Of a DNA stretch of 64,000 bases, positions 4,269-62,170 are shown piece by piece. The DNA comes from Elusimicrobiota bacterium (lineage in GTDB: Bacteria > Elusimicrobiota > Elusimicrobia > JACQPE01), in assembly GCA_016180815.1 (NCBI GenBank), contig JACPAN010000005.1, positions 62,001 to 126,000 of the forward strand. Direction: 5' to 3'. The notes beneath the pieces are model-generated. The model was not told the origin of the DNA, searched no databases, and saw only the letters and a list, made by a program, of their open reading frames with translations. Position numbers and translations under genes: made by a program. Positions within the stretch are counted from its first letter, which is position 1. Each line of letters begins with the position of its first letter.

Positions 4269-6440
4269 GCGCGGTTTATTTTAGCGGCCACCGTTTTGTT
4301 GCCGTTTCCGTTTTTGTTGATGGCCGAGGATGCTCCATCAAAAGAAGAAAGCTTAGAATCCGAGCCTTTTCGTCAGGAGGACGCTCAATACAATTGGTTG
4401 AGACTGGGATCGCTTTTTGACGATCGCGATCATGAACGCCGGGGTTTTAATCTCGATTTGCATTTGGACGTTGACGAACAGGCGAATCTGGGCGCGAGTT
4501 CGTTGGGGGTCAATTATCTGAGCCCCGCCCGCCAGTGGAGACTGAGAACCCAGATCGGGGTTATCGGTAAGGAAGCGTCGGAGAGCATCCAAGGCATTTC
4601 GCCTTATCTTTACCAGGATTTGGATTGGCGTTCGGCGCATGACGCCGAATTTTATCAGCGCGCAGCAGCCAGCATGGCGCTTCTTTATTCAAGGGCGCGA
4701 TTCTTCGCGGATGACCGGGGCGATTTTGAGCGAACCTTCGATTCCATGGTCGAGGGCACGGGTTTGGCGCCTTACGCTTTGCTGGTGGATTACGATTTTC
4801 ACGGCGCGTTCATTCCCATCGGCGCGGCGTTTTATCAGCTGGGTCAAATGTACCCCATGCCGTGGGACCTTGATGTCGGGTGGATGACGACGTTTTCCCT
4901 GCAGCACTCCTGGATATTCCCCAACCTTCAAACCGATGTCAGCTTGGGGGCTCAATGGCGGCCCGATCTTTTGCCTTTCCGCGTCGCTTTGTGGGCGGGG
5001 GAGAGCCAGAATTTTTCTCCGGCCGGGCAATATATTCTTCAAGACGCTATGGCGTTGCGGGAAAACAAGGTTCCTTTTGAAGTGCATGCCGAGCGCGCTC
5101 CTCATCTGGGAGCGGCTGTTTACGGACCGCTGCCCTTGGGGCTTCCCGGAGATTGGATTGTGGATCATTCTGTGCGCTTTAACCCGTTGACCACGGCCGC
5201 GCATTTGGGCGTGGGCGTTAACTCGAGGATCAAGGATTTGCCGATTCAAATCGGCATGGGCTGGGAGCATGAAGAAGGGGACGGGATCGAATTTAATCGC
5301 GACCGCAAAAGCGCTTATGTCAATGTTTCGCCTTGGGAGCTGGTGCAAATGACCGCATCCGTGGGGGCCGAGGATTTTCGCTATGGAGATGCCCGCTACA
5401 CGAATGTGGGCGCTTTTATCGGCTTGCGGGGAACTTGGGGAAAGCACCCGGTATCCGTGGCCCTAACTGCGCGTCCTGAACTTGAGGAAACCAGGCATGA
5501 GGATTTGCCTTACGGACGCGAGCAAATGGCCGATGATTTAGCCCGGATCAAGCATCGCTTGGCCGAGGAATTAATCGCCGATCTTGAGCGTCTTAAAGAC
5601 GAGCAATTCGATCAAGCTTTCGGGCCTTACCGACAAGGCGCCGGCGACGCTCAAGAATGGAATGATGAAAATTTGGATCACTTGATTGAGATGCTTCGTT
5701 TGATCGACGCCATCACCGCCGGGCAATCCGGCGTGGACACTCAAGCCCTGATTCAATCCTTGCAAAGCTACCGTGATTTGATTGCTTCGCTTAATAATGC
5801 GATTAGGGGCGCCGAGGGATCGTCCCGAGAGGCGGCCCATCGCATGATTGCGGCTTTACGCGATTTAAATAATTACACCGACTCCGTGGTCAGGGATTTG
5901 GGTCAAAGCGCGGCTTTGGAACGCGTAGCTCAGCGCGGCCTGCGTTATGCGGTCCAGGAAGCGGCCCGGCAAAATCCCGTGCGCTTCCGGTTATTTAACC
6001 GCGACTTGCGCATGGAAATGGGCGGGGCTCATATGATTTCCGCGGCCCAAATCATGAACGGCCGCCTATCGCCCTTGCCACCCTTGAGGCGGGGGGATAT
6101 CGAGGAATACATCGTTCCTTTCGGTTATTGGCAGCTTTCCCGCGCCATGGATAATGAAAATCCCGATGCCGACGCCGGCCATATCATTGAAACAGGGCTT
6201 CAAAACATTCCGGAGCAGGATCGTGATCGGGTGAGGAACGAATACGGTCCCGATGCCAAAAGCATGCTCGACAGCGGTATGCTTTATATGGGTTCAATGA
6301 CGCGGAGCGAGGCCAATCAAATGATGCTTGACGCCACCCGCGCCGGCGAACAACAGGATGATTTAACCATCACTCGGGGCCGCAAAGCCAACGAATTATC
6401 CGGTCAGGGGCTCTTGGAAATGTTCCGGCGGCAGCCGTAA
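4242..6440 (+). CDS. exported protein: predicted beta-barrel-like N-terminal half, helical C-terminal half; family not recognised
   Basis: About 732 residues. From the GTG at 4242 the protein begins TDTIIPFFARFILAATVLLP, a basic-poor but strongly hydrophobic signal sequence ending near MAEDAPS. The open frame continues upstream, but those codons are antisense-like translation of atoE. Residues about 60-420 alternate short amphipathic strands with aromatic ends (GVNYLSPARQWRLRTQIGVI, VDYDFHGAFIPIGAAFYQLG), as in an outer-membrane barrel. Residues about 430-620 are charged and helical (ARIKHRLAEELIADLERLKD), likely coiled coil. No terminal barrel signature is clear. I do not recognise the family. 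The start inside the inverted repeat suggests the repeat inserted near the 5' end or supplied the start. Confidence 0.7.
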   Translation: MTDTIIPFFARFILAATVLLPFPFLLMAEDAPSKEESLESEPFRQEDAQYNWLRLGSLFDDRDHERRGFNLDLHLDVDEQANLGASSLGVNYLSPARQWRLRTQIGVIGKEASESIQGISPYLYQDLDWRSAHDAEFYQRAAASMALLYSRARFFADDRGDFERTFDSMVEGTGLAPYALLVDYDFHGAFIPIGAAFYQLGQMYPMPWDLDVGWMTTFSLQHSWIFPNLQTDVSLGAQWRPDLLPFRVALWAGESQNFSPAGQYILQDAMALRENKVPFEVHAERAPHLGAAVYGPLPLGLPGDWIVDHSVRFNPLTTAAHLGVGVNSRIKDLPIQIGMGWEHEEGDGIEFNRDRKSAYVNVSPWELVQMTASVGAEDFRYGDARYTNVGAFIGLRGTWGKHPVSVALTARPELEETRHEDLPYGREQMADDLARIKHRLAEELIADLERLKDEQFDQAFGPYRQGAGDAQEWNDENLDHLIEMLRLIDAITAGQSGVDTQALIQSLQSYRDLIASLNNAIRGAEGSSREAAHRMIAALRDLNNYTDSVVRDLGQSAALERVAQRGLRYAVQEAARQNPVRFRLFNRDLRMEMGGAHMISAAQIMNGRLSPLPPLRRGDIEEYIVPFGYWQLSRAMDNENPDADAGHIIETGLQNIPEQDRDRVRNEYGPDAKSMLDSGMLYMGSMTRSEANQMMLDATRAGEQQDDLTITRGRKANELSGQGLLEMFRRQP

Positions 6441-13041: not shown

Positions 13042-13779
13042 TTAAGCGGTGCGGACTTCTGCAGGCGCCGGACTTAGGTCGGAGGCTGCTGCCGGGATGG
13101 CATCCGCTTCTTCTTGAGCCTTGTCCGCTTCATTGCCGTGCTGCACAGCTTCAACGGTATTGACAATTCCGGAGACCAGCCCCATGGCGCCCATCGTCAC
13201 CAGCGCGCCTAAGCCCCAGCTGGCCGGACTGAAAATGGCCATAATGCCCATGCCGATTTGCAAAATCGTTCCCAAAACGCCCAGCACCTTATCTACGGTG
13301 GACATTTTATCCCAGTCCGCGATCATCTGATAAACGCGGTAAATGGACAAGGCGAACAGCAGTCCCGCCGCCGCATAACCGAAAATCGGCATGAGATTAG
13401 GATAAGGACCCAAACCTAGAGTCAAGCCTGTAACCGAGCCGGCCACGGCCAAGCCCGAAATCCCGACGTTGAGCCAACTTTTGCCGGCTAATTCACGATG
13501 CGCCCTGGCCCGGTCCTCAAGGATGCCTTTTCGAATCTGCTGCGTTTGTTGATAAACCCGTTCTTCGTAATTGTCACCCGGTAAGCCGTCATAGGAGGCC
13601 ACTAAGACCGGCGCGCAGGCGCCGGGCGATTGAGCGCCGTCGTAAATCGAAGCCATGTCCGCCGCCGCCAGATCGGCTCCGGCCACGGAGGGCGAGGCGC
13701 AGGAATCAGGCTGGGCTGAGGATTGAGACGCGCAGAAGAAAAAACACAGGGCGATGAACGTGTGAAAAATATTTTTCAC
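13042..13779 (-). CDS. signal-peptide protein with about four C-terminal transmembrane segments, unknown family
   Basis: 245 residues from a GTG start. The frame is open further upstream, but the signal peptide (KNIFHTFIALCFFFCASQSS) starts cleanly here. A 100-residue polar, Cys-containing region precedes hydrophobic segments around WLNVGISGLAVAGSVTGLTL, IFGYAAAGLLFALSIYRVY and MGIMAIFSPASWGLGALVTM. A TATATT box ends seven bases before the GTG, again suggesting a short or absent leader. Its layout (signal, polar part, glycine-rich membrane end) resembles the proteins of the 39-45 kb cassettes. I cannot assign a function. Confidence 0.68.
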   Translation of the reverse strand: MKNIFHTFIALCFFFCASQSSAQPDSCASPSVAGADLAAADMASIYDGAQSPGACAPVLVASYDGLPGDNYEERVYQQTQQIRKGILEDRARAHRELAGKSWLNVGISGLAVAGSVTGLTLGLGPYPNLMPIFGYAAAGLLFALSIYRVYQMIADWDKMSTVDKVLGVLGTILQIGMGIMAIFSPASWGLGALVTMGAMGLVSGIVNTVEAVQHGNEADKAQEEADAIPAAASDLSPAPAEVRTA

Positions 13780-13857
13780 GGATCTCAATATAGCACAGGG
13801 CGGGATTTGAGTTATAGGTCTTTTGGGTAGTTTAAAATTGCCCGAAAGGCCCACCCA

Positions 13858-14436
13858 TTATCGAAGAAGGGCGTTTAGGCGTTCTTTGAAGGCCTCTTTC
13901 GTGACGATGCCGTGGAGACGATCGCCCGATTCCCGTCCGCTTTTAAAGAAGACAAACGTGGGCACGCTGTCGACACCCAGACGCCGGGCCACGTCGGTGT
14001 GATCCCTCGTGTTAACCTGCACAAAACGGATTCTTCCCGCGTATTCATCGGACAGGTCGCGAACAACAGGATACATGCGCCGGCAAATGGGGGAGCGCGG
14101 ATCGTGAAAATAGACGGCGACCGGAATCTCGGATTTTACGACGATATTCTCAAAATCGTCATCCCCGATTTCCTGCACGGTCAAAGGGGCGGCTTGATCG
14201 CTTTGTTCGAATTCCTGCGCCTGGGCGGCTGCGCTGCCGGGGAGATCGACGCGGCTTGGGGTTCTATTTGGACTGCGGCCTTTGAAGGCGGGCATGGTTG
14301 CGCCCGTCGCAGGAGCACCGTCTAACAGCGCGGTTAAGGCATTCTGAACCTGCGCGGCGTCATTGGCGAGAACCCAAGCCAATGGGTTCAATAGCAAAAC
14401 AACCGTAAAAATGGCCGGCCACAAGGATTTTTTCAT
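13858..14436 (-). CDS. secreted thioredoxin-fold protein lacking the first active-site cysteine
   Basis: 192 residues: signal peptide (KKSLWPAIFTVVLLLNPLAW), a low-complexity 60-residue linker, then a thioredoxin fold with VAVYFHDPRSPICRRMYPVV, FVQVNTRDHTDVARRLGV and the cis-proline loop DSVPTFVFFKSG. The usual WCGPC is RSPIC, so only the second cysteine remains. A disulphide-exchange cycle is therefore unlikely, and a monothiol, binding or chaperone role is possible. It is the first gene of the minus-strand secreted cluster and lies downstream of the double-dyad operator at 14477-14514. Confidence 0.85.
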   Translation of the reverse strand: MKKSLWPAIFTVVLLLNPLAWVLANDAAQVQNALTALLDGAPATGATMPAFKGRSPNRTPSRVDLPGSAAAQAQEFEQSDQAAPLTVQEIGDDDFENIVVKSEIPVAVYFHDPRSPICRRMYPVVRDLSDEYAGRIRFVQVNTRDHTDVARRLGVDSVPTFVFFKSGRESGDRLHGIVTKEAFKERLNALLR

Positions 14437-14476
14437 TCTCTATATAAAATTTACCATGGCTTCTATCCAAAATCTC

Positions 14477-14514
14477 AGGACTTTAGACCTTAGTTAATAT
14501 AGGACTAAAGTCCT
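14477..14514. promoter_or_regulatory. double-dyad operator-like element between the thioredoxin-like gene and pyrD
   Basis: Two related 14-mers, AGGACTTTAGACCT (14477-14490) and AGGACTAAAGTCCT (14501-14514), flank a 10-bp AT-rich spacer. The second copy extends to a perfect 8-bp-arm dyad, ATAGGACT-AA-AGTCCTAT (14499-14516). A matching pair occurs at 62132-62170. Confidence 0.72.
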
Positions 14515-14580
14515 ATTGTCATTGATCAGCCTCAATCCTGCCTATATTAGAGTCATTTTTGTTTTGTTCTAATCAGATGG

Positions 14581-38364: not shown

Positions 38365-39231
38365 TTAAAAGTCGAATATTTTTTTAACGGTAGCTTCAAC
38401 GGTAAAGAGGCCGGAATCAGATTTTTTGTCCAGCGTGGAGTAGATTTCAGAACCCCAAACCATCTGGGCAAGGTAGGGCAGGTATTGGGTTAATTCGGCT
38501 TGGGAAGCCCGAAAAGCCGCCAGGCGGCGAAAAAGCGTGCCTCCTTTTTTCTTGCGGGCCATCTCATCATAAAATTTGACCGCCGGGGCGTATTTTGGCT
38601 GCTCGCCGAATTCTGCGCCATAGGACTGAGGATAAATAAAGAATCGTCCGGCATGGGGCGAATAGTAGTCGCCGGTCTTGTGGCGCCGGACAAGACCCGC
38701 CTCGGTCAACGCGTCAAGGGCTTTTTGAATTTTTTTAGAAGCAAACCCCAATAATTTGGCCAATGCCGGAACGCTCCAGGAATTTTTGTCATTGGAAAAA
38801 ATTTCAAAAACCCAGTGATTGGCCGGAGTTGCTTTGATAATTTTCGCTTGGCGTTGACTTAAATTATAACGCTTGGGCTCAACGGCTCGCTGCATGGCCG
38901 CTTGAAGGGGATGGCGTTGACGGCTGGTTCCACTGGTCGTCAACAGCGGCGCCAGCAAGTATTGGAACGCGTCGCGGCCCCATGCGGAGCTGATATAGGC
39001 CAGGGTAAATTCGCCAAGGGCATTCTGGTCGCTGCGCAAAAAGAGCATTCGCGCGAGCATTAAAAGGGTACGCGGGCGCGGGAGGGATTTTTCCGTTTCA
39101 AAATTAAGGTATTCATTGTAGGTAAATCCAAAAATTTCATAGCCGCCGTTGCTGCGGTAGAACCCAGCCGCTGTTTTAAATCCGGCCGCTTTTCGTAGTC
39201 GCGCTAAGACCTCCCCGAATTTTTCTTGCAT
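38365..39231 (-). CDS. TIGR02147-like DNA-binding regulator A
   Basis: 288 residues. The N-terminal 70 residues form a helix-turn-helix-like region (RSNGGYEIFGFTYNEYLNFE then KSLPRPRTLLMLARML). The middle holds a winged-helix (FSNDKNSWSVPALAKLLGFA, then KIQKALDALTEAGLVRRHKT). The C-terminal domain ends PDSGLF-like as SDSGLFTVEATVKKIFDF. It is closely paralogous to the gene at 41226-42092: equal length, same motifs throughout. TIGR02147 proteins are expanded in a few phyla and their ligands are unknown. It is divergent from the secreted-protein cassette A, with a 16-bp palindrome in between. Confidence 0.82.
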   Translation of the reverse strand: MQEKFGEVLARLRKAAGFKTAAGFYRSNGGYEIFGFTYNEYLNFETEKSLPRPRTLLMLARMLFLRSDQNALGEFTLAYISSAWGRDAFQYLLAPLLTTSGTSRQRHPLQAAMQRAVEPKRYNLSQRQAKIIKATPANHWVFEIFSNDKNSWSVPALAKLLGFASKKIQKALDALTEAGLVRRHKTGDYYSPHAGRFFIYPQSYGAEFGEQPKYAPAVKFYDEMARKKKGGTLFRRLAAFRASQAELTQYLPYLAQMVWGSEIYSTLDKKSDSGLFTVEATVKKIFDF

Positions 39232-39260
39232 GCTGCCTTAAGCCTAGCTCAAGAAAGAAG

Positions 39261-39276
39261 TTAAATCTAGATTTAA
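39261..39276. promoter_or_regulatory. 16-bp palindrome in the divergent control region of cassette A
   Basis: TTAAATCTAGATTTAA is a perfect dyad 30 bases from the regulator A start. The counterpart at 42122-42137 keeps 12 of 16 positions, including both outer AAAT/ATTTAA arms. I infer an autoregulatory site for the TIGR02147-like proteins. Confidence 0.65.
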
Positions 39277-39308
39277 TTTTTTTCACAGGCTGACGAATCT
39301 CTCTTTAT

Positions 39309-39362
39309 GGGACTTTTTGTCAGATAGACCCTAGGGGACCGGCGCGGCATCGTCTTTAATAT
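39309..39362 (+). promoter_or_regulatory. conserved promoter block of cassette A
   Basis: GGGACTTTTT (39309), GACCCTAGG (39327) and TCTTTAATAT (39353) occur at the same mutual distances as GGAACTTTTT, GACCCTAGG and TCTTTAATAT at 42170, 42188 and 42214. TAATAT could be a -10, ending five bases before the GTG start at 39368. No -35 consensus fits a 17-bp spacing, so the conserved GACCCTAGG may be an activator or alternative-sigma element. Confidence 0.6.
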
Positions 39363-39367
39363 TCTTG

Positions 39368-39967
39368 GTGAGAATTTCCTTGCTATCCATTTTTTTATTA
39401 TCGGAGGTTCTTCCTTTGCGGGTTTATGGCGAAACGCCCGAACAATTGAGCTCTCAGCCCCGGTTTTTTTTCGGCGAAGCCGGAACTGGGCCGTCGATGG
39501 CCTTACCCGTGAACCCCGGTCCATCGTCTACCAGGGCCGGCGGCGTCGGGAGGGGTTCGTTTAATGCCATGTCCGTCAGCCCTGGTTCCGGCGGATCGAG
39601 TTCGGACGGCGACGGTATTGAGGAGAGACCTTGGGAGGGCGGCGGCGGTTCAGCCCACCCGTCTTTAGTTCCCGGGGTTTTGGGTTTGGGGCTTGCTACC
39701 TTGGGTATCGGGGTGCTTTTAACGAGCAAAGGTTCTGCTGGAAAGCGCTTGATCGGTTTGGGATTTTTGGGTTTGGGCCTGGCCTTCGGCGCTTTAGCCG
39801 CCGGCGCTTTTTTGTGGCCTGTTTTCTTTCAGGTGTTGGGAGCGGTTCTGATGGGCTTATCCGTTGCGCTGGCGATCAAGGGGTCGCAAGATTTGGAACG
39901 CGAAAAAAGTAAGCCACAAAAATGGAATTGCGAAAAGTATCCGGAAATGTGCGAGGAGAGCAAATAA
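39368..39967 (+). CDS. cassette A protein 1: exported, Gly/Ser-rich, C-terminal membrane segments
   Basis: About 199 residues. The GTG at 39368 starts a short signal sequence (RISLLSIFLLSEVLPLRVYG). A polar Gly/Ser/Pro-rich region (SPGSGGSSSDGDGIEERPWE) of about 80 residues follows, then three glycine-zipper hydrophobic segments (GVLGLGLATLGIGVLLTS; RLIGLGFLGLGLAFGALAAG; VLGAVLMGLSVALAI) and a charged tail with CEKYPEMCEESK. There is no Shine-Dalgarno, and the codon lies five bases after TAATAT. A TTG three bases upstream is an alternative. The family is not recognised. Confidence 0.68.
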   Translation: MRISLLSIFLLSEVLPLRVYGETPEQLSSQPRFFFGEAGTGPSMALPVNPGPSSTRAGGVGRGSFNAMSVSPGSGGSSSDGDGIEERPWEGGGGSAHPSLVPGVLGLGLATLGIGVLLTSKGSAGKRLIGLGFLGLGLAFGALAAGAFLWPVFFQVLGAVLMGLSVALAIKGSQDLEREKSKPQKWNCEKYPEMCEESK

Positions 39968-39968
39968 G

Positions 39969-40079
39969 ATGAAAAGAAGGGTATCGAGGGGTGAGCCTGG
40001 TGCGGTCGCTATGACCATGGGCCTTAGCGCCGTCGGCGGCGTGATTGGCGCCGCTATCAGCGATTGGTTGGTTGACTAA
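39969..40079 (+). CDS. cassette A protein 2: 36-residue glycine-zipper peptide
   Basis: A 36-residue ORF that starts one base after the previous stop codon, with GAGGAG ten bases upstream. It has a basic N-terminus (KRRVSRGEPG) and a hydrophobic glycine-zipper segment, MTMGLSAVGGVIGAAISDWL. Composition and size resemble pore-forming or toxin/bacteriocin-like peptides, or a small membrane subunit. It has no counterpart in cassette B. Placement within a tight gene string and a proper ribosome-binding site support it being real. Confidence 0.6.
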   Translation: MKRRVSRGEPGAVAMTMGLSAVGGVIGAAISDWLVD

Positions 40080-40099
40080 AAATAAGGAGTGGATTCAAA

Positions 40100-40627
40100 A
40101 TGAAGAACGGATGGTCTAAAGAATTTTTGGCAATGGCGGCGGTTTTAATAGCAAGCAGCACGGCGGTTTTTGCCGGTTCACCGGCTTTAAACAGCGAGGA
40201 GGAAAAACAGGCGGCGCAGCCTCAGGTGATTATGGAAGGGAGTGAAAAACCCGACTACACGCTTGGCGTTTCCGGCAGCGATTGCGATGGAACGTTCGAC
40301 AAGTGTGTTGTAGCGCCGGTTTCGCCTCTTGTTTACCCTAACAAAAGTGATCTTGAGGCGCGGGAGCAATGCAGTTTGGTTTGTGACGGCGCTCCAAAAT
40401 TCACTAAAGCCGCAAGAAATTTAATTTTGGCGCCCTATGCCCTGGCAACCACGGTTTACAACACGGTTAAATGGCAAGCAAGCAAAGTCGACAACCCGCT
40501 TGCCAAAGTCGGCGTCGGTCTTTTTGGCCTTGCTGAAGGTCTTATAGTCGGCGCTTTTGTCCTTGTCGTTGCGTTGTTCTTCTCTGTTTTTGGTCTATTG
40601 GCCGGCGCTTTTACAGGAAATTGGTAG
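40100..40627 (+). CDS. cassette A protein 3: exported, C-terminal membrane domain; paralogue of 42759-43436
   Basis: 175 residues. The signal peptide is KEFLAMAAVLIASSTAVFAG. A polar part with Cys residues (GSDCDGTFDKCVV, EQCSLVCDG) leads to ARNLILAPYALATTVYNTVK and a glycine-rich double membrane segment ending in AGAFTGNW. The last 75 residues align with those of the 225-residue protein of cassette B (ARNIVLSPYTLVATVYNTIR ... IGASSGRW). AAGGAG lies ten bases before the ATG. Function unknown. Confidence 0.78.
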   Translation: MKNGWSKEFLAMAAVLIASSTAVFAGSPALNSEEEKQAAQPQVIMEGSEKPDYTLGVSGSDCDGTFDKCVVAPVSPLVYPNKSDLEAREQCSLVCDGAPKFTKAARNLILAPYALATTVYNTVKWQASKVDNPLAKVGVGLFGLAEGLIVGAFVLVVALFFSVFGLLAGAFTGNW

Positions 40628-40639
40628 GAGGATAAAAAA

Positions 40640-40747
40640 ATGAAGAGAATATCGTCATTATCAATCTTCGTCATCTGCATTCCGTTCCTTATCGGTAGGG
40701 CTAAAAAAGGAGACGGACCCTGTGCGCGTCAGCGGCTCTACCGGTGA
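40640..40747 (+). CDS. cassette A protein 4, 5' portion: signal-peptide ORF, apparently frameshifted
   Basis: An ATG with AGGAGG eight bases upstream encodes a signal sequence (KRISSLSIFVICIPFLIGRA) and then stops after 35 residues. Skipping one base at the A6 run (40703-40708) would join it to the 137-residue frame beginning at 40722. All other genes of the string start with a signal peptide and this frame supplies the one missing from its neighbour, so a single gene of about 164 codons is likely. Confidence 0.55.
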   Translation: MKRISSLSIFVICIPFLIGRAKKGDGPCARQRLYR

Positions 40748-41135
40748 AGCGATAAAATTTTTGTCCACCGACTTCAAAAATGTCAGAACAAATTTCCATG
40801 TGGTCGAAAATCCAAACACAATTCATATCCGAAGCATTCAATATGCAAGCCGAAGGGCGGATAAAGTCGGTTTTTTTGTCGGTGTTACCGCAGGCGTCGG
40901 GGGCTTTTTGTTGTCGCCTAGCGTGCTCCTTATTACCGAGTTAAAAAGTAAAGGAAGAGCCGCTTGGGTGGCGGATGAGGGCGGGATGTTTTGTTTGAAT
41001 GCCGCTTTGGCCGTGGGGTTTTATTTTTTGGCGAAAGGTGTCTACAACACTTGGTTTCGTGACGGCGTTTATCAACGGGCCTATCAATACGCTCAGGACA
41101 ATCCTGTTGTTACTGATCCTGACCGAAACGATTAG
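40722..41135 (+). CDS. cassette A protein 4, main portion: two-segment membrane protein
   Basis: 137 residues from a GTG that has AAGGAG nine bases upstream, so independent initiation is possible. A polar part (FHVVENPNTIHIRSIQYASR) precedes two membrane segments (VGFFVGVTAGVGGFLLSPSV; MFCLNAALAVGFYFLAKGVY) and a charged tail. On its own it has no export signal; the preceding ORF carries one in another frame. It could be a natural frameshift, a slippage site, or a sequencing error in the A6 run. Family unknown. Confidence 0.6.
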   Translation: MRVSGSTGEAIKFLSTDFKNVRTNFHVVENPNTIHIRSIQYASRRADKVGFFVGVTAGVGGFLLSPSVLLITELKSKGRAAWVADEGGMFCLNAALAVGFYFLAKGVYNTWFRDGVYQRAYQYAQDNPVVTDPDRND

Positions 41136-41225
41136 ATGAAAAAGTAGTTGATTTCGCCCGGTTGGCTTTACCCATCCCGAAATTTTATCCATAACTTAAT
41201 CGCGGCGGTTGGACGCTTTTAAAGG

Positions 41226-42092
41226 TTAGAAATCGAACATTTTTTTAATGCTGGCTTCGACCAAGAATAAGCCGGAGTCCGGTTTGGGTTTGAGCGTCGA
41301 ATAAATATCAACACCGTACACCGCATGGCCGAGGTAAGGGATGAAATTGGCCAACTCGGATTCCGAAGCGCGCACCGTCAGCCAGCGCTGGAAAATGATT
41401 TTCGGTTTTTTATTGACCTCGATGTCCGCCGAAAACTTTTTGAGTTGAGCATAGCCGGGCACGTCCGCGCTCTGCGGCGCCGGTGAACGCGGCAAGAGGA
41501 TGAATTTTCCTGTCAGCGGGCTGGAAAAGCGCCCGTCTTTGTTGCGATCGACCAGCCCGACTTGCCGCAGTTTCTCGATTGCTTTGGCGATTTGAGCTTC
41601 AGGGAATCCCAGAATCTGCTTAAGACGCTGCGTATCCCAAGGCTCGTAATCATTGACCATCACTTCATAAATCCAAAACGTCAGAGCGGAGCTTCTGATC
41701 ACGTCAGCTTGCTTTTGCGTCAGGTTTACTTTTTTCACATCCACGGCCTGTTTCAACGCTTGCTGCATCGGCCCCGCGCCGGCAGGCGCGCTTGCGGATT
41801 GAAAAGCCGGCAAGAGGATAGAGTGCAAGATTTCCTTGCCCCAGAGGGATTCAAGATAAGCCAGCGTGAAATCCCTTAGCTTGCCGAGATCGGCTTTAAG
41901 CCTGAGCATCTGGGTCAGGGCGATGAGCGTTTTGGGCAGGGGGAGAGATTTGGCTTTTTCGAAATTTAAATATTGGTTGTAGCTGAACCCGAAAACCTGC
42001 CTCCCTCCGTTGGCTTTGTAAAACCGGGCCGCCGCGGTGTAGCCTTCTTCTTCCCGAAGTCGCGCGAGGCATTTAGCGAATTTGTCATTCAT
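41226..42092 (-). CDS. TIGR02147-like DNA-binding regulator B
   Basis: 288 residues, paralogue of the 38365-39231 product. Matching stretches include NGGRQVFGFSYNQYLNFEKA (against NGGYEIFGFTYNEYLNFETE), KSLPLPKTLIALTQML, VNLTQKQADVIRSSALTFWI, the winged helix TQRLKQILGFPEAQIAKAIE and the end PDSGLFLVEASIKKMFDF. It is divergent from cassette B across a control region that aligns without gaps to that of regulator A. It is convergent with the last gene of cassette A. Confidence 0.82.
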   Translation of the reverse strand: MNDKFAKCLARLREEEGYTAAARFYKANGGRQVFGFSYNQYLNFEKAKSLPLPKTLIALTQMLRLKADLGKLRDFTLAYLESLWGKEILHSILLPAFQSASAPAGAGPMQQALKQAVDVKKVNLTQKQADVIRSSALTFWIYEVMVNDYEPWDTQRLKQILGFPEAQIAKAIEKLRQVGLVDRNKDGRFSSPLTGKFILLPRSPAPQSADVPGYAQLKKFSADIEVNKKPKIIFQRWLTVRASESELANFIPYLGHAVYGVDIYSTLKPKPDSGLFLVEASIKKMFDF

Positions 42093-42121
42093 CGTATTTC
42101 AAGTCTAACCCCAAAAGAAAG

Positions 42122-42137
42122 TGAAATCATCATTTAA
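42122..42137. promoter_or_regulatory. imperfect dyad in the divergent control region of cassette B
   Basis: TGAAATCATCATTTAA corresponds, at an offset of exactly 2861 bp, to the perfect palindrome TTAAATCTAGATTTAA of cassette A. The arms are conserved and only the centre and one outer base differ. Confidence 0.6.
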
Positions 42138-42169
42138 CTTTTTTAACCGCCCACCCCATCCAGGTTTGT

Positions 42170-42223
42170 GGAACTTTTTACCGGTTGGACCCTAGGTGAT
42201 AGACGCTTTCTCATCTTTAATAT
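42170..42223 (+). promoter_or_regulatory. conserved promoter block of cassette B
   Basis: GGAACTTTTT, GACCCTAGG and TCTTTAATAT are spaced identically to the cassette A block. The GTG equivalent to the cassette A start (42229) is present and in frame with the ATG at 42253, but here an AAGGAGG Shine-Dalgarno has placed a second start downstream. Confidence 0.6.
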
Positions 42224-42252
42224 CTCTAGTGATTTGCCTAAGGAGGATAAAG

Positions 42253-42762
42253 ATGAAACAGATGAAGCCTGTAATTTGCTTTTGCGCCGTCGTGTTTGGT
42301 TTGGCTATCTCATGCGCGCAAGCGGCGCCGGGAGCGCCGGCCGGAGGGGATGAAGAGAGGGAGGCCGCCGGCCTAGCGGCTCATTTCGGCGAAGGCAGGC
42401 AAGCCGGCTCCTCGGCAAACCCATTTAACCTTCAAGCCGCATCACTTACTGCCGGCAAAGCGTCTGGGAATATGGCGGCATTGCCCAGAACCGGTGTATT
42501 GCCCTACCCGACCTATTACGATATGAAAAATATGCGAGTGGCCGCCCTACGGGCCGATGCCAAGGAGAAACTGATCTTGTCCATTGGAAGCGCCGTGGTT
42601 GGCTTCGCGGCGATCTGTGTGGCGGCTTTCTCCAGTATACCTGGGACGGTGGCGGCTATGGTTGCCGTGTTGGGCGCTGTGGCATTGCTCTGGGGCGTAA
42701 TCTTTGGCGTGACGGCCTACCGGCGTTATATAGCCGCTAATCTGATAACGAGTTGGTTATGA
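42253..42762 (+). CDS. cassette B protein 1: exported, C-terminal double membrane segment
   Basis: 169 residues. The ATG has AAGGAGG seven bases upstream; an in-frame GTG at 42229 is a possible leaderless start. The signal peptide KPVICFCAVVFGLAISCAQA is followed by APGAPAGGD, a polar region, and two membrane segments (KLILSIGSAVVGFAAICVAA; AAMVAVLGAVALLWGVIFG). The signal-cleavage region is shared with the next protein down to identical DNA. Its stop overlaps the next start (ATGA). Function unknown. Confidence 0.75.
   Translation: MKQMKPVICFCAVVFGLAISCAQAAPGAPAGGDEEREAAGLAAHFGEGRQAGSSANPFNLQAASLTAGKASGNMAALPRTGVLPYPTYYDMKNMRVAALRADAKEKLILSIGSAVVGFAAICVAAFSSIPGTVAAMVAVLGAVALLWGVIFGVTAYRRYIAANLITSWL
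42314..42344 (+). repeat. 31-bp exact repeat, copy 1 (encodes AQAAPGAPAG)
   Basis: Identical to 42805-42835, and in the same reading frame at the signal-peptide cleavage site of two adjacent genes, 491 bp apart. Confidence 0.9.
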
Positions 42763-43436
42763 AAAAAATTGTTGTTTCAGCTTTGTTGATTTTGACTATC
42801 TCTCGCGCGCAAGCGGCGCCGGGAGCGCCGGCCGGGGGTGATTCTTGGGAGAAAGAATCAGCGAGTTTATCTCAGACGTTTCATGGTTTCAAAGAAGGTC
42901 CGCGGGGCGCCCAACCTGTTAGGGTGGCCAATGTTGATTATGGGGTCGAAGTCGAAATGGAAGAGCAGGCCGCGCGCGCAACCGATCCGGAAACGAAGAA
43001 ACGACACCTGGAAGCCCTTCAAAGATTCCGGGCCATGAGAGGCAGGCCGCCTTTAAGCGTTCCTTGGAAAGCCGCTTATTTTAATGACCTTTATGGCTGC
43101 GGTGATTGGTGGACGAATCCTTCTGAACAAGAGAGGTTGAAGTCTTTCAATTGTTCGGTTTGGCAACCCGCGAAACCCTTGGTGAGCCCCGATGAAAACG
43201 GTGCAATGCGTGCAGGGGTATCTGCGCGAAATATCGTCTTGTCCCCTTATACCCTCGTCGCTACTGTCTATAACACCATACGGTGGCAGGTAAGAAGAGT
43301 CAGCGGCCCGCTTAAAGTTGTGACCGGGTTGTTCGGATTTCTTGAGGGAATCATTCTGGGCGTGGCGTTTATGGCGGCGGCCTTGGTAGCCGGACTTATG
43401 GGGCTAGTTATCGGCGCCTCGTCGGGCCGTTGGTAA
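42759..43436 (+). CDS. cassette B protein 2: exported, C-terminal membrane domain; paralogue of 40100-40627
   Basis: 225 residues from the ATG overlapping the previous stop. The signal peptide KKIVVSALLILTISRAQA is followed by the same APGAPAGGD as the preceding protein. A polar region with AYFNDLYGCGDWWTNPSEQE and the single Cys of FNCSVWQ precedes ARNIVLSPYTLVATVYNTIR and a glycine-rich membrane pair ending GASSGRW. The C-terminal third is homologous to cassette A protein 3. Unknown family. Confidence 0.78.
   Translation: MKKIVVSALLILTISRAQAAPGAPAGGDSWEKESASLSQTFHGFKEGPRGAQPVRVANVDYGVEVEMEEQAARATDPETKKRHLEALQRFRAMRGRPPLSVPWKAAYFNDLYGCGDWWTNPSEQERLKSFNCSVWQPAKPLVSPDENGAMRAGVSARNIVLSPYTLVATVYNTIRWQVRRVSGPLKVVTGLFGFLEGIILGVAFMAAALVAGLMGLVIGASSGRW
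42805..42835 (+). repeat. 31-bp exact repeat, copy 2
   Basis: Exact copy of 42314-42344 in the next gene, same frame. No synonymous change has accumulated, unlike the rest of the two genes, which are unrelated in sequence. Confidence 0.9.
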
Positions 43437-43509: not shown

Positions 43510-43983
43510 ATGAAAATAAAAATTCAAATCGCACTAATCTCAGTTTTGATTACAGGGGAATTTGCTTTATCCCATGCGGGTCAAAATGATGACTTGGCCG
43601 CAGAAGCACAAGGCCGTTTTGACGGCGCCCAAACGCCTACGGATGAGCGCATTTACACTACGCGCGAGGTGCCTTTGGAGCAGGCCTATGATTACGTGCC
43701 CTTTTGCCGGGGTCTTAAAGCCCCTGCCCCTGCCGAAGGCCCCTCTCTTCAAGAAAGAAAACAGGCAGCGGCTCGCCGCGGGGCTAGGACGGGCCGCTAC
43801 GTTGGGCAAGGGGCCGGCTATATCCTGGGCTTTGCTATCCCCATGACGCTCGGTCTAACCGGAACTCTGTCAGGATTTTGGGTTTACGCCGGTGTCATGA
43901 TGGGCCTTTTCGCCATCGGCCCCATTCTAGGCGCCGCCATGGGTTGGACACTCGGCCGGCTGATCGGCTACTTAAAAACTTAA
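43510..43983 (+). CDS. cassette B protein 3: exported, glycine-rich membrane pair
   Basis: 157 residues. Signal peptide KIKIQIALISVLITGEFALS, a polar region with one Cys (YDYVPFCRGL), a basic stretch RKQAAARRGARTGRYVGQ, then two membrane segments (GYILGFAIPMTLGLTGTLSG; AGVMMGLFAIGPILGAAMGW). The layout matches its neighbours. GGGGATAA before the ATG gives a modest ribosome-binding site. Function unknown. Confidence 0.72.
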   Translation: MKIKIQIALISVLITGEFALSHAGQNDDLAAEAQGRFDGAQTPTDERIYTTREVPLEQAYDYVPFCRGLKAPAPAEGPSLQERKQAAARRGARTGRYVGQGAGYILGFAIPMTLGLTGTLSGFWVYAGVMMGLFAIGPILGAAMGWTLGRLIGYLKT

Positions 43984-61418: not shown

Positions 61419-62096
61419 TCAGTACGGCCGGTCGTTTTGACAGACCGAGGATTGGGCTTGCTCCCAATATTGACCGTTGATGATGCCGTCGTAGCGTTCA
61501 TGGGTGCGGCGTTCCTCGATCTCTTCGGCCGTAAAAATTTCGGGCATTTGTTCGGCCTGCGTTCGGGCCAAGGCCGCGGCCTGTTCGATTTCTTCGGCAG
61601 ACGAAGGGTCAACGATGGCTTCGATCACATTGCCGATGCCCAGGGTCATTAAGCCGAGCATGGCATCGCGGCGTTCGCGAGGGCGTCGAGCGGCAGTTTC
61701 TCGATGGGCGACGAAGCGTTCTCGGTTGACGATTTGGTACCTGCGTTGAAAGCGTTTCCTGGTTTCAATAAGGCAGGAAGCGCGGCACCAGCGTTCACCC
61801 CAGTCGTTTTCCCTGCAGGTGCCGAGCACCGGAGTTCTGGTTTGTGTTTCTTCAAGAAGGGTTTCATCAAGCAAAACCGTGCCGTCAGGCCGCACTGGGC
61901 CCGCTGGGGTGCGGCGTTGGATCAATGTTGTGCGTGCGGCGTTGGGACGAATCCGCGGTTGATCGCCGAAGGCTTCGTTGATGCTGCGCTCCATCCGCGT
62001 ATGGTCCCGGCCGCAGAGATCGCAGGCAGCGCCGGGCGGATTCCCCCAGGCGAGCATCGGGAACAAAAGAACGATACAGGCTAAAAGCCTTGTCAC
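61419..62096 (-). CDS. exported Arg/Glu-rich protein with Cys pairs, unknown
   Basis: 225 residues from GTG. Signal peptide TRLLACIVLLFPMLAWGNPP, a CDLCGRDH motif, then VLGTCRENDWGERWCRASC and a long Glu/Arg-rich helix with one moderately hydrophobic patch (AMLGLMTLGIGNVIEAIVD). It is upstream of the P60 gene and downstream of the double-dyad operator at 62132-62170. No family recognised. Confidence 0.68.
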   Translation of the reverse strand: MTRLLACIVLLFPMLAWGNPPGAACDLCGRDHTRMERSINEAFGDQPRIRPNAARTTLIQRRTPAGPVRPDGTVLLDETLLEETQTRTPVLGTCRENDWGERWCRASCLIETRKRFQRRYQIVNRERFVAHRETAARRPRERRDAMLGLMTLGIGNVIEAIVDPSSAEEIEQAAALARTQAEQMPEIFTAEEIEERRTHERYDGIINGQYWEQAQSSVCQNDRPY

Positions 62097-62131
62097 GATT
62101 TAATTATGGCCTGCCCTAGCCTGCGGACCTA

Positions 62132-62170
62132 GGGCCTTTGGTCCCGATTTTATACTAGGACTATGGTCCC
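62132..62170. promoter_or_regulatory. double-dyad operator-like element, second instance
   Basis: GGGCCTTTGGTCCC (62132-62145) and AGGACTATGGTCCC (62157-62170) flank an 11-bp AT-rich spacer (GATTTTATACT). The architecture and sequence match 14477-14514. The first copy is an imperfect dyad. Here too a divergent pair of genes, one for an exported protein, flanks the site. Confidence 0.7.

Follow-up and report, generated by a model that had tools for sequence, protein, structure and literature searches.

The 64,000-nucleotide stretch of an Elusimicrobiota genome analyzed here (contig JACPAN010000005.1 of assembly GCA_016180815.1; henceforth the window, in whose positions coordinates are given) harbors two related regulatory genes, termed here regulators A and B, each lying back to back with an operon for exported proteins (Table 1). 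The source genome (G000) comprises 2.85 Mb in 39 contigs, designated C plus a number, and genome-wide counts were obtained by pattern searches. The two regulators align without gaps over 288 amino acids with 43% identity and a pair of downstream proteins (starting at 40100 and 42759) is likewise duplicated (37% identity, E 1e-23), identifying the unit as a tandem duplication. The two divergent control regions, which are the subject of this analysis, also align without gaps, at an offset of exactly 2861 and with 86 of 136 bases identical between 39232-39367 and 42093-42228, in full agreement with the original prediction, made from the letters alone, that four elements recur at this constant offset. 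Shuffled copies gave a mean of 35 and a maximum of 53 identical bases (n=2000), and the best of 40 neighboring offsets reached 53 of 137, against 87 at offset 2861. Identity drops to background past approximately 39372, that is, around the start-codon region. Set against the regulators' third codon positions, where identity is 31% (88/288), the 63% identity of the control regions points to real constraint on non-coding DNA, and the strong functional constraint proposed originally is thereby upheld.

Two of the recurrent elements, GACCCTAGG and TCTTTAATAT, can be read as the core of a promoter. The pattern GACNCTAGG has 14 matches in the genome, where its reversed control has 54; nine of the 14 are intergenic and face a gene, mostly one coding for an exported protein, and the remaining five, inside genes or at them, lack such an arrangement. 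Alignment of the nine intergenic sites and a site on C3 by their GAC reveals a TATAAT-like hexamer at offset +28 (40 of 60 letters, the next best offset giving 30), a signal that none of 5000 rotations reached. On this alignment TCTTTAATAT is the predicted -10 element, and an ordinary one, contrary to the non-standard promoter envisaged originally. A weight-matrix scan detected a further member in the window, at 62136, with an upstream box, AGGGACCATAGTCCTA, centered 27.5 bp from its GGCCCTAGG box. In four genomes of the same family, GACYCTAGG-N19-TANNNT yields 12 matches versus none for the control, and in genome G002 six of seven sites present an exact TATAAT, though several resemble copies of each other. 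With the spacing left free between 8 and 30 nt in 235 genomes of the class, nine of 14 GACYCTAGG/TATAAT pairs are separated by exactly 19 nt. A motif scan of named genomes returned four matches in one groundwater Elusimicrobia metagenome-assembled genome and two scattered elsewhere. The promoter is also kept at orthologous positions in two genomes of another family (L133 and L157, in G029 and G228), with the same upstream neighbor and the same downstream exported-protein gene. The core class appears to be small in G000, since a genome-wide search with the promoter profile recovered essentially its training sites alone; a search for related loci with two alignments (A2 and A1) found no relatives. 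In both G000 and its relatives, GACYCTAGG promoters occur without a gene like regulators A and B nearby, so that GACCCTAGG is not tied to the local regulators and the original interpretation, partly supported and right in outline, proves too local.

Promoters with GACYCTAGG also bear palindromes of the TAGGACTWWAGTCCTA type, the core of which, GGACTWWAGTCC, is identical over 12 bases to that of the DosR box of M. tuberculosis. Searches for TAGGACTWWAGTCCTA located 24 sites versus 6 for the control in G000 with two mismatches allowed, and 93 versus 14 in 60 class genomes with one. Intergenic locations account for 48 of the 55 box sites examined, mostly at most 130 bp upstream of signal-peptide genes. 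With GAC as reference, the palindromes have their centers at -2.5 and at about -24.5 and -48.5, with boxes spaced some 22-25 bp apart. Judged from these positions, GACCCTAGG is the downstream half of the promoter-proximal palindrome (GGGTCTTTGGACCC and TAGGTCTTTAGACCC in relatives), fused to the predicted -35 region. Moreover, -10 hexamers are found at the predicted distances from palindromes picked independently of GACCCTAGG (20 versus 10.3 expected, p 0.0015), as in TAGGTCTTTAGTCCTA-8-TAGGTCTTTAGGCTC...TATAAT. The strict GACYCTAGG lies near only two of the 55 palindromes, in both cases at 48.5-49.5 bp, and most class members therefore retain the palindromes and TATAAT, not the exact GACCCTAGG. 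At L074, L075, L083 and L085 the boxes form tandem arrays of two or three, with 24-25 bp from one to the next; those of L083 precede a FabI-like gene, which implies that the regulon is not confined to exported proteins.

GTG codons predicted as starts, and lacking a Shine-Dalgarno sequence, lie 40-41 nt from GAC at 39368, at 62096 and in genome G011. With the predicted transcription start about 40 nt downstream of the G in GAC, GTG 39368 is a credible leaderless start. In copy B the aligned GTG (42229) lies in frame, but a better start is offered by ATG 42253, with its perfect AAGGAGG Shine-Dalgarno sequence, and the leaderless-type codon proposed originally for both copies is thus credible for copy A only. 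Class II activators bind a dimeric site centered near -42, and the predicted transcription start would place the center of the proximal box near this very position.

The 20-mer recognized by DosR in M. tuberculosis is TTGGGGACTAAAGTCCCTAA, contacted by K179, K182 and N183 (PMC5999986), and in DevR promoters the boxes are closely packed and the proximal box overlaps the -35 element (PMC3029386). Both the palindromic boxes and their packed, -35-overlapping arrangement are found in the promoter class described here; in the two window promoters the palindromes are degenerate, the proximal half box alone being clear. Proteins with a GerE domain are present in 53 of the 60 class genomes. Palindromes number two versus five for the control in the seven genomes lacking a GerE match, and 91 versus 9 in the remaining genomes. 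In G000, a response regulator encoded on C26 combines receiver and GerE domains with the K179/K182/N183 contacts and presents KTVKN; its relatives in G001-G004, G007, G009 and G010 have KTVKN or KTIKN. These results suggest that a NarL-family response regulator resembling DosR and VraR is the binder of the boxes. The C26 gene (L189, 326-1749) adjoins a histidine-kinase-like gene, near TadE/G-like pilus-type proteins, and this neighborhood is kept across the family (G001, G003 and G004; L190, L191 and L199).

Regulators A and B belong to a set of eight full-length paralogs in the genome, all of which match DUF4423 (PF14394) weakly (E<0.01, best E 2e-7), the two window regulators scoring 26.4 and 29.5 bits (E ~1e-6), under the gathering score of 30 bits. 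The TIGR02147 label (Fsuc_second) given to them originally has to be abandoned, for this model has no match in the genome and none by hmmscan of the eight regulators. A structure model (predicted local distance difference test, pLDDT, 76) presents XRE-like helices at its N-terminus and a winged helix-turn-helix (HTH) at its center, and a fold search with it returned HTH and winged-helix fragments alone, with no confident whole-protein match. Six paralogs have a divergent neighbor, and GACNCTA lies upstream of that neighbor, on its strand, in five of the six; the motif set is therefore present at other paralogous loci, its absence from which had been named originally as counterevidence. A decayed tandem duplication is seen on C16 (L041, ~5144-6256), where a full paralog is immediately preceded by a truncated extra C-terminus of the regulator (C16:63144-63347).

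The regulator dyad of the original prediction, termed here dyad-1, is indeed present in both copies, with limits better drawn as in Table 1 than from 39261 and 42122. Its center lies at -60 relative to GAC in C21 and at -71 to -72.5 in C3 and in both C16 promoters and, on the regulator side, 22 nt from a TAGRCT -10 at three loci. As dyad-1 overlaps the predicted -35 of the regulator gene, autorepression is probable. In G000, the upstream boxes of regulator-adjacent promoters are all degenerate, with none above threshold, whereas the four promoters away from regulators (C2, C9, C10 and 62136) possess a scoring upstream box, from which we infer that a local operator has taken the place of the upstream boxes at regulator-linked promoters. 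One-to-one pairing of each dyad-1 with its own regulator was also considered and found unsupported, the dyad-1 copies not being uniquely cognate.

The reading that we favor, and regard as probable on the strength of these sequence comparisons, is that the duplicated, divergent promoters in the two control regions belong to a class-wide regulon under a DosR-like activator and additionally carry a superimposed site for the local regulator. In such promoters, a palindromic box with GACYCTAGG as its proximal half would overlap the -35, followed 19 nt on by a TATAAT-type -10, as the sequence statistics indicate, and a NarL-family response regulator would bind the boxes and recruit RNA polymerase in the absence of a TTGACA -35. 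At regulator-linked promoters the upstream boxes would have decayed, with a putative dyad for the DUF4423-like regulator 58-73 bp upstream of the GAC box; bound to dyad-1, the local regulator would repress its own promoter and may help or gate the divergent exported-protein operon, generating a two-input promoter. Several observations weigh against this reading. VraR (8e-40) is a better overall match to the C26 response regulator than DevR (3c3w, 9e-32), and KTVKN does not fix binding specificity, because similar contacts are common to NarL-family regulators. No box is seen by eye upstream of the C26 response regulator gene itself, and some GerE-carrying genomes present no box excess. Furthermore, neither window promoter has any upstream box above the scoring threshold, so that DosR-like control there is read from the proximal half box, and the assignment of dyad-1 to the adjacent regulator would draw solely on position and family resemblance.

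Among the alternatives, GACCCTAGG might be the -35 of an alternative sigma factor, with no activator needed, as the rigid 19-nt spacing to the -10, the lack of a TTGACA -35 and the likeness of GGRACTTTTT to -35 elements of extracytoplasmic function (ECF) sigma factors would suggest. We deem this improbable, given that the -10 matches the ordinary TATAAT of housekeeping promoters, that GACCCTAGG is half of a palindrome repeated in tandem upstream, for which a sigma factor has no need, and that no more than three promoters in the genome have GG(G/A)ACTTTTT at this position (window copies A and B, and C21, there as GAGACTTTTTT). An ECF-sigma promoter proper, with a GGAAC-type -35 and a non-TATAAT -10 across members, was rejected on the same grounds, the -35 not being common to the promoters and the -10 being TATAAT-like; of the two roles originally offered for GACCCTAGG, activator or sigma element, it is thus the activator type, as half of a DosR-like palindrome over the -35, that persists. 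The boxes could instead be targets of a factor from outside the NarL family that recognizes a similar palindrome, and such palindromes are known in other families, e.g., the GntR-type TGGTCTAGACCA. This seems unlikely, while still deserving some weight, in view of the 12-base core identity with the DosR box, of a packed, -35-overlapping geometry equal to that of DevR promoters and of a conserved KTVKN response regulator that tracks the boxes, being present with them and absent without.

The retention of GACCCTAGG and dyad-1 at the same loci would also be explained if the DUF4423-like local regulators bound both elements, the model implied by the original prediction. GACYCTAGG-N19-TATAAT promoters also occur remote from genes of this type, and box palindromes are present in G001, G003 and G009, three genomes in which none of these regulators was found, making this model very improbable. 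Finally, the duplication of the regulators and of one operon gene pair might lead one to regard the alignment as a functionless relic of recent duplication, a notion that can hardly be entertained when third codon positions are near-random next to the control region, identity ends at the start-codon region and the same elements are present at unrelated promoters.

On the DosR-like reading, these promoters would be a variant of the DosR type that belongs to another phylum and includes an operator for a local regulator. The likeness to the M. tuberculosis DosR/DevR regulon extends to the GGACTWWAGTCC core, the packed boxes, the proximal box over the -35 and the KTVKN contacts (PMC5999986, PMC3029386), and the differences, besides phylum, lie in the outer bases (TA here rather than G), in targets that are mostly exported proteins and not dormancy genes, in the replacement of upstream boxes by the local regulator's dyad in several promoters and in the predicted leaderless starts. 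A DosR-type 16-nt palindrome is also known outside mycobacteria, in the OsdR regulon of Streptomyces, but its GC-rich consensus, AGGGCCGATCGGCCCT, is less similar to the box reported here (PMC5069765). As in class II activation of the CRP and FNR type, a dimeric site near -42 would stand in place of the -35, with an activator of a different family and tandem boxes ~22-25 bp apart. A literature search in an open-access library turned up no regulon of this kind for the Elusimicrobiota. It is conceivable, if somewhat short of probable, that the Elusimicrobiota possess an ancestral DosR-like two-component regulon for exported proteins, many with an FDG motif, the promoters of which were repeatedly captured by expanding DUF4423-like regulators that swapped the upstream boxes for their own operator and kept the -35-overlapping half box, giving rise to two-input promoters. 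The analysis yields a sequence-defined promoter class with a probable regulator and a set of exported-protein targets, extends the DosR box grammar to a phylum distant from the Actinobacteria, and offers an example, amenable to testing, of the capture of a global activator's promoter by a local regulator.

Table 1. Features of the duplicated control regions and related elements in the window.
Feature	Position	Strand	Remarks
Regulator A	38365..39231	-	DUF4423-like; XRE-like helices at N-terminus, winged HTH at center
Predicted -10 TAGGCT, regulator A	39241..39246	-	22 nt from dyad-1 center; by-eye alignment with copies B and C16
Dyad-1 A, AAGTTAAATCTAGATTTAATTT	39258..39279		Center 58.5 bp upstream of GACCCTAGG box; overlap with the predicted regulator A -35
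GGGACTTTTT	39309..39318	+	Degenerate DosR-like half box; center -11.5 from GAC box, position as in C21
GACCCTAGG, copy A	39327..39335	+	Putative promoter-proximal half of DosR-like box, overlapping -35 region
Predicted -10 TTTAAT, copy A	39355..39360	+	Within TCTTTAATAT, exactly 19 nt past GACCCTAGG
First gene, divergent operon A	39368..39967	+	GTG at predicted +1 (leaderless); signal-peptide protein
Operon A exported protein	40100..40627	+	Homolog of 42759-43436
Regulator B	41226..42092	-	Tandem paralog of regulator A
Predicted -10 TAGACT, regulator B	42102..42107	-	Copy B
Dyad-1 B, AAGTGAAATCATCATTTAACTT	42119..42140		Same placement relative to box B
GGAACTTTTT	42170..42179	+	Copy B counterpart of GGGACTTTTT
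GACCCTAGG, copy B	42188..42196	+	As copy A
Predicted -10 TTTAAT, copy B	42216..42221	+	Counterpart of 39355..39360
First gene, divergent operon B	42253..42762	+	ATG with AAGGAGG; signal-peptide protein
Operon B exported protein	42759..43436	+	Homolog of 40100-40627
Independent member	62128..62136	-	GGCCCTAGG box; CATAAT -10 at +28 (19 nt on); GTG 62096 at +40, the predicted +1
Tandem DosR-like boxes TAGGACTTTAGTCCTA and AAGGTCTAAAGTCCTG	14476..14515	-	24 bp apart; precede exported-protein operon 13042-14436

The exported proteins encoded at 43510-43983, 13042-14436, 39368-39967 and 61419-62096, otherwise unrelated in sequence, share a motif of the approximate form EAxxxFDGxxxxG (F[DEG][GDE]) after the signal peptide. 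Motifs of this type are also found at L041 (13722-17465), L043 (6852-8492), L052 (2453) and L113 (686-1441), the relative G001 included, and may possibly constitute a sorting or processing signal.

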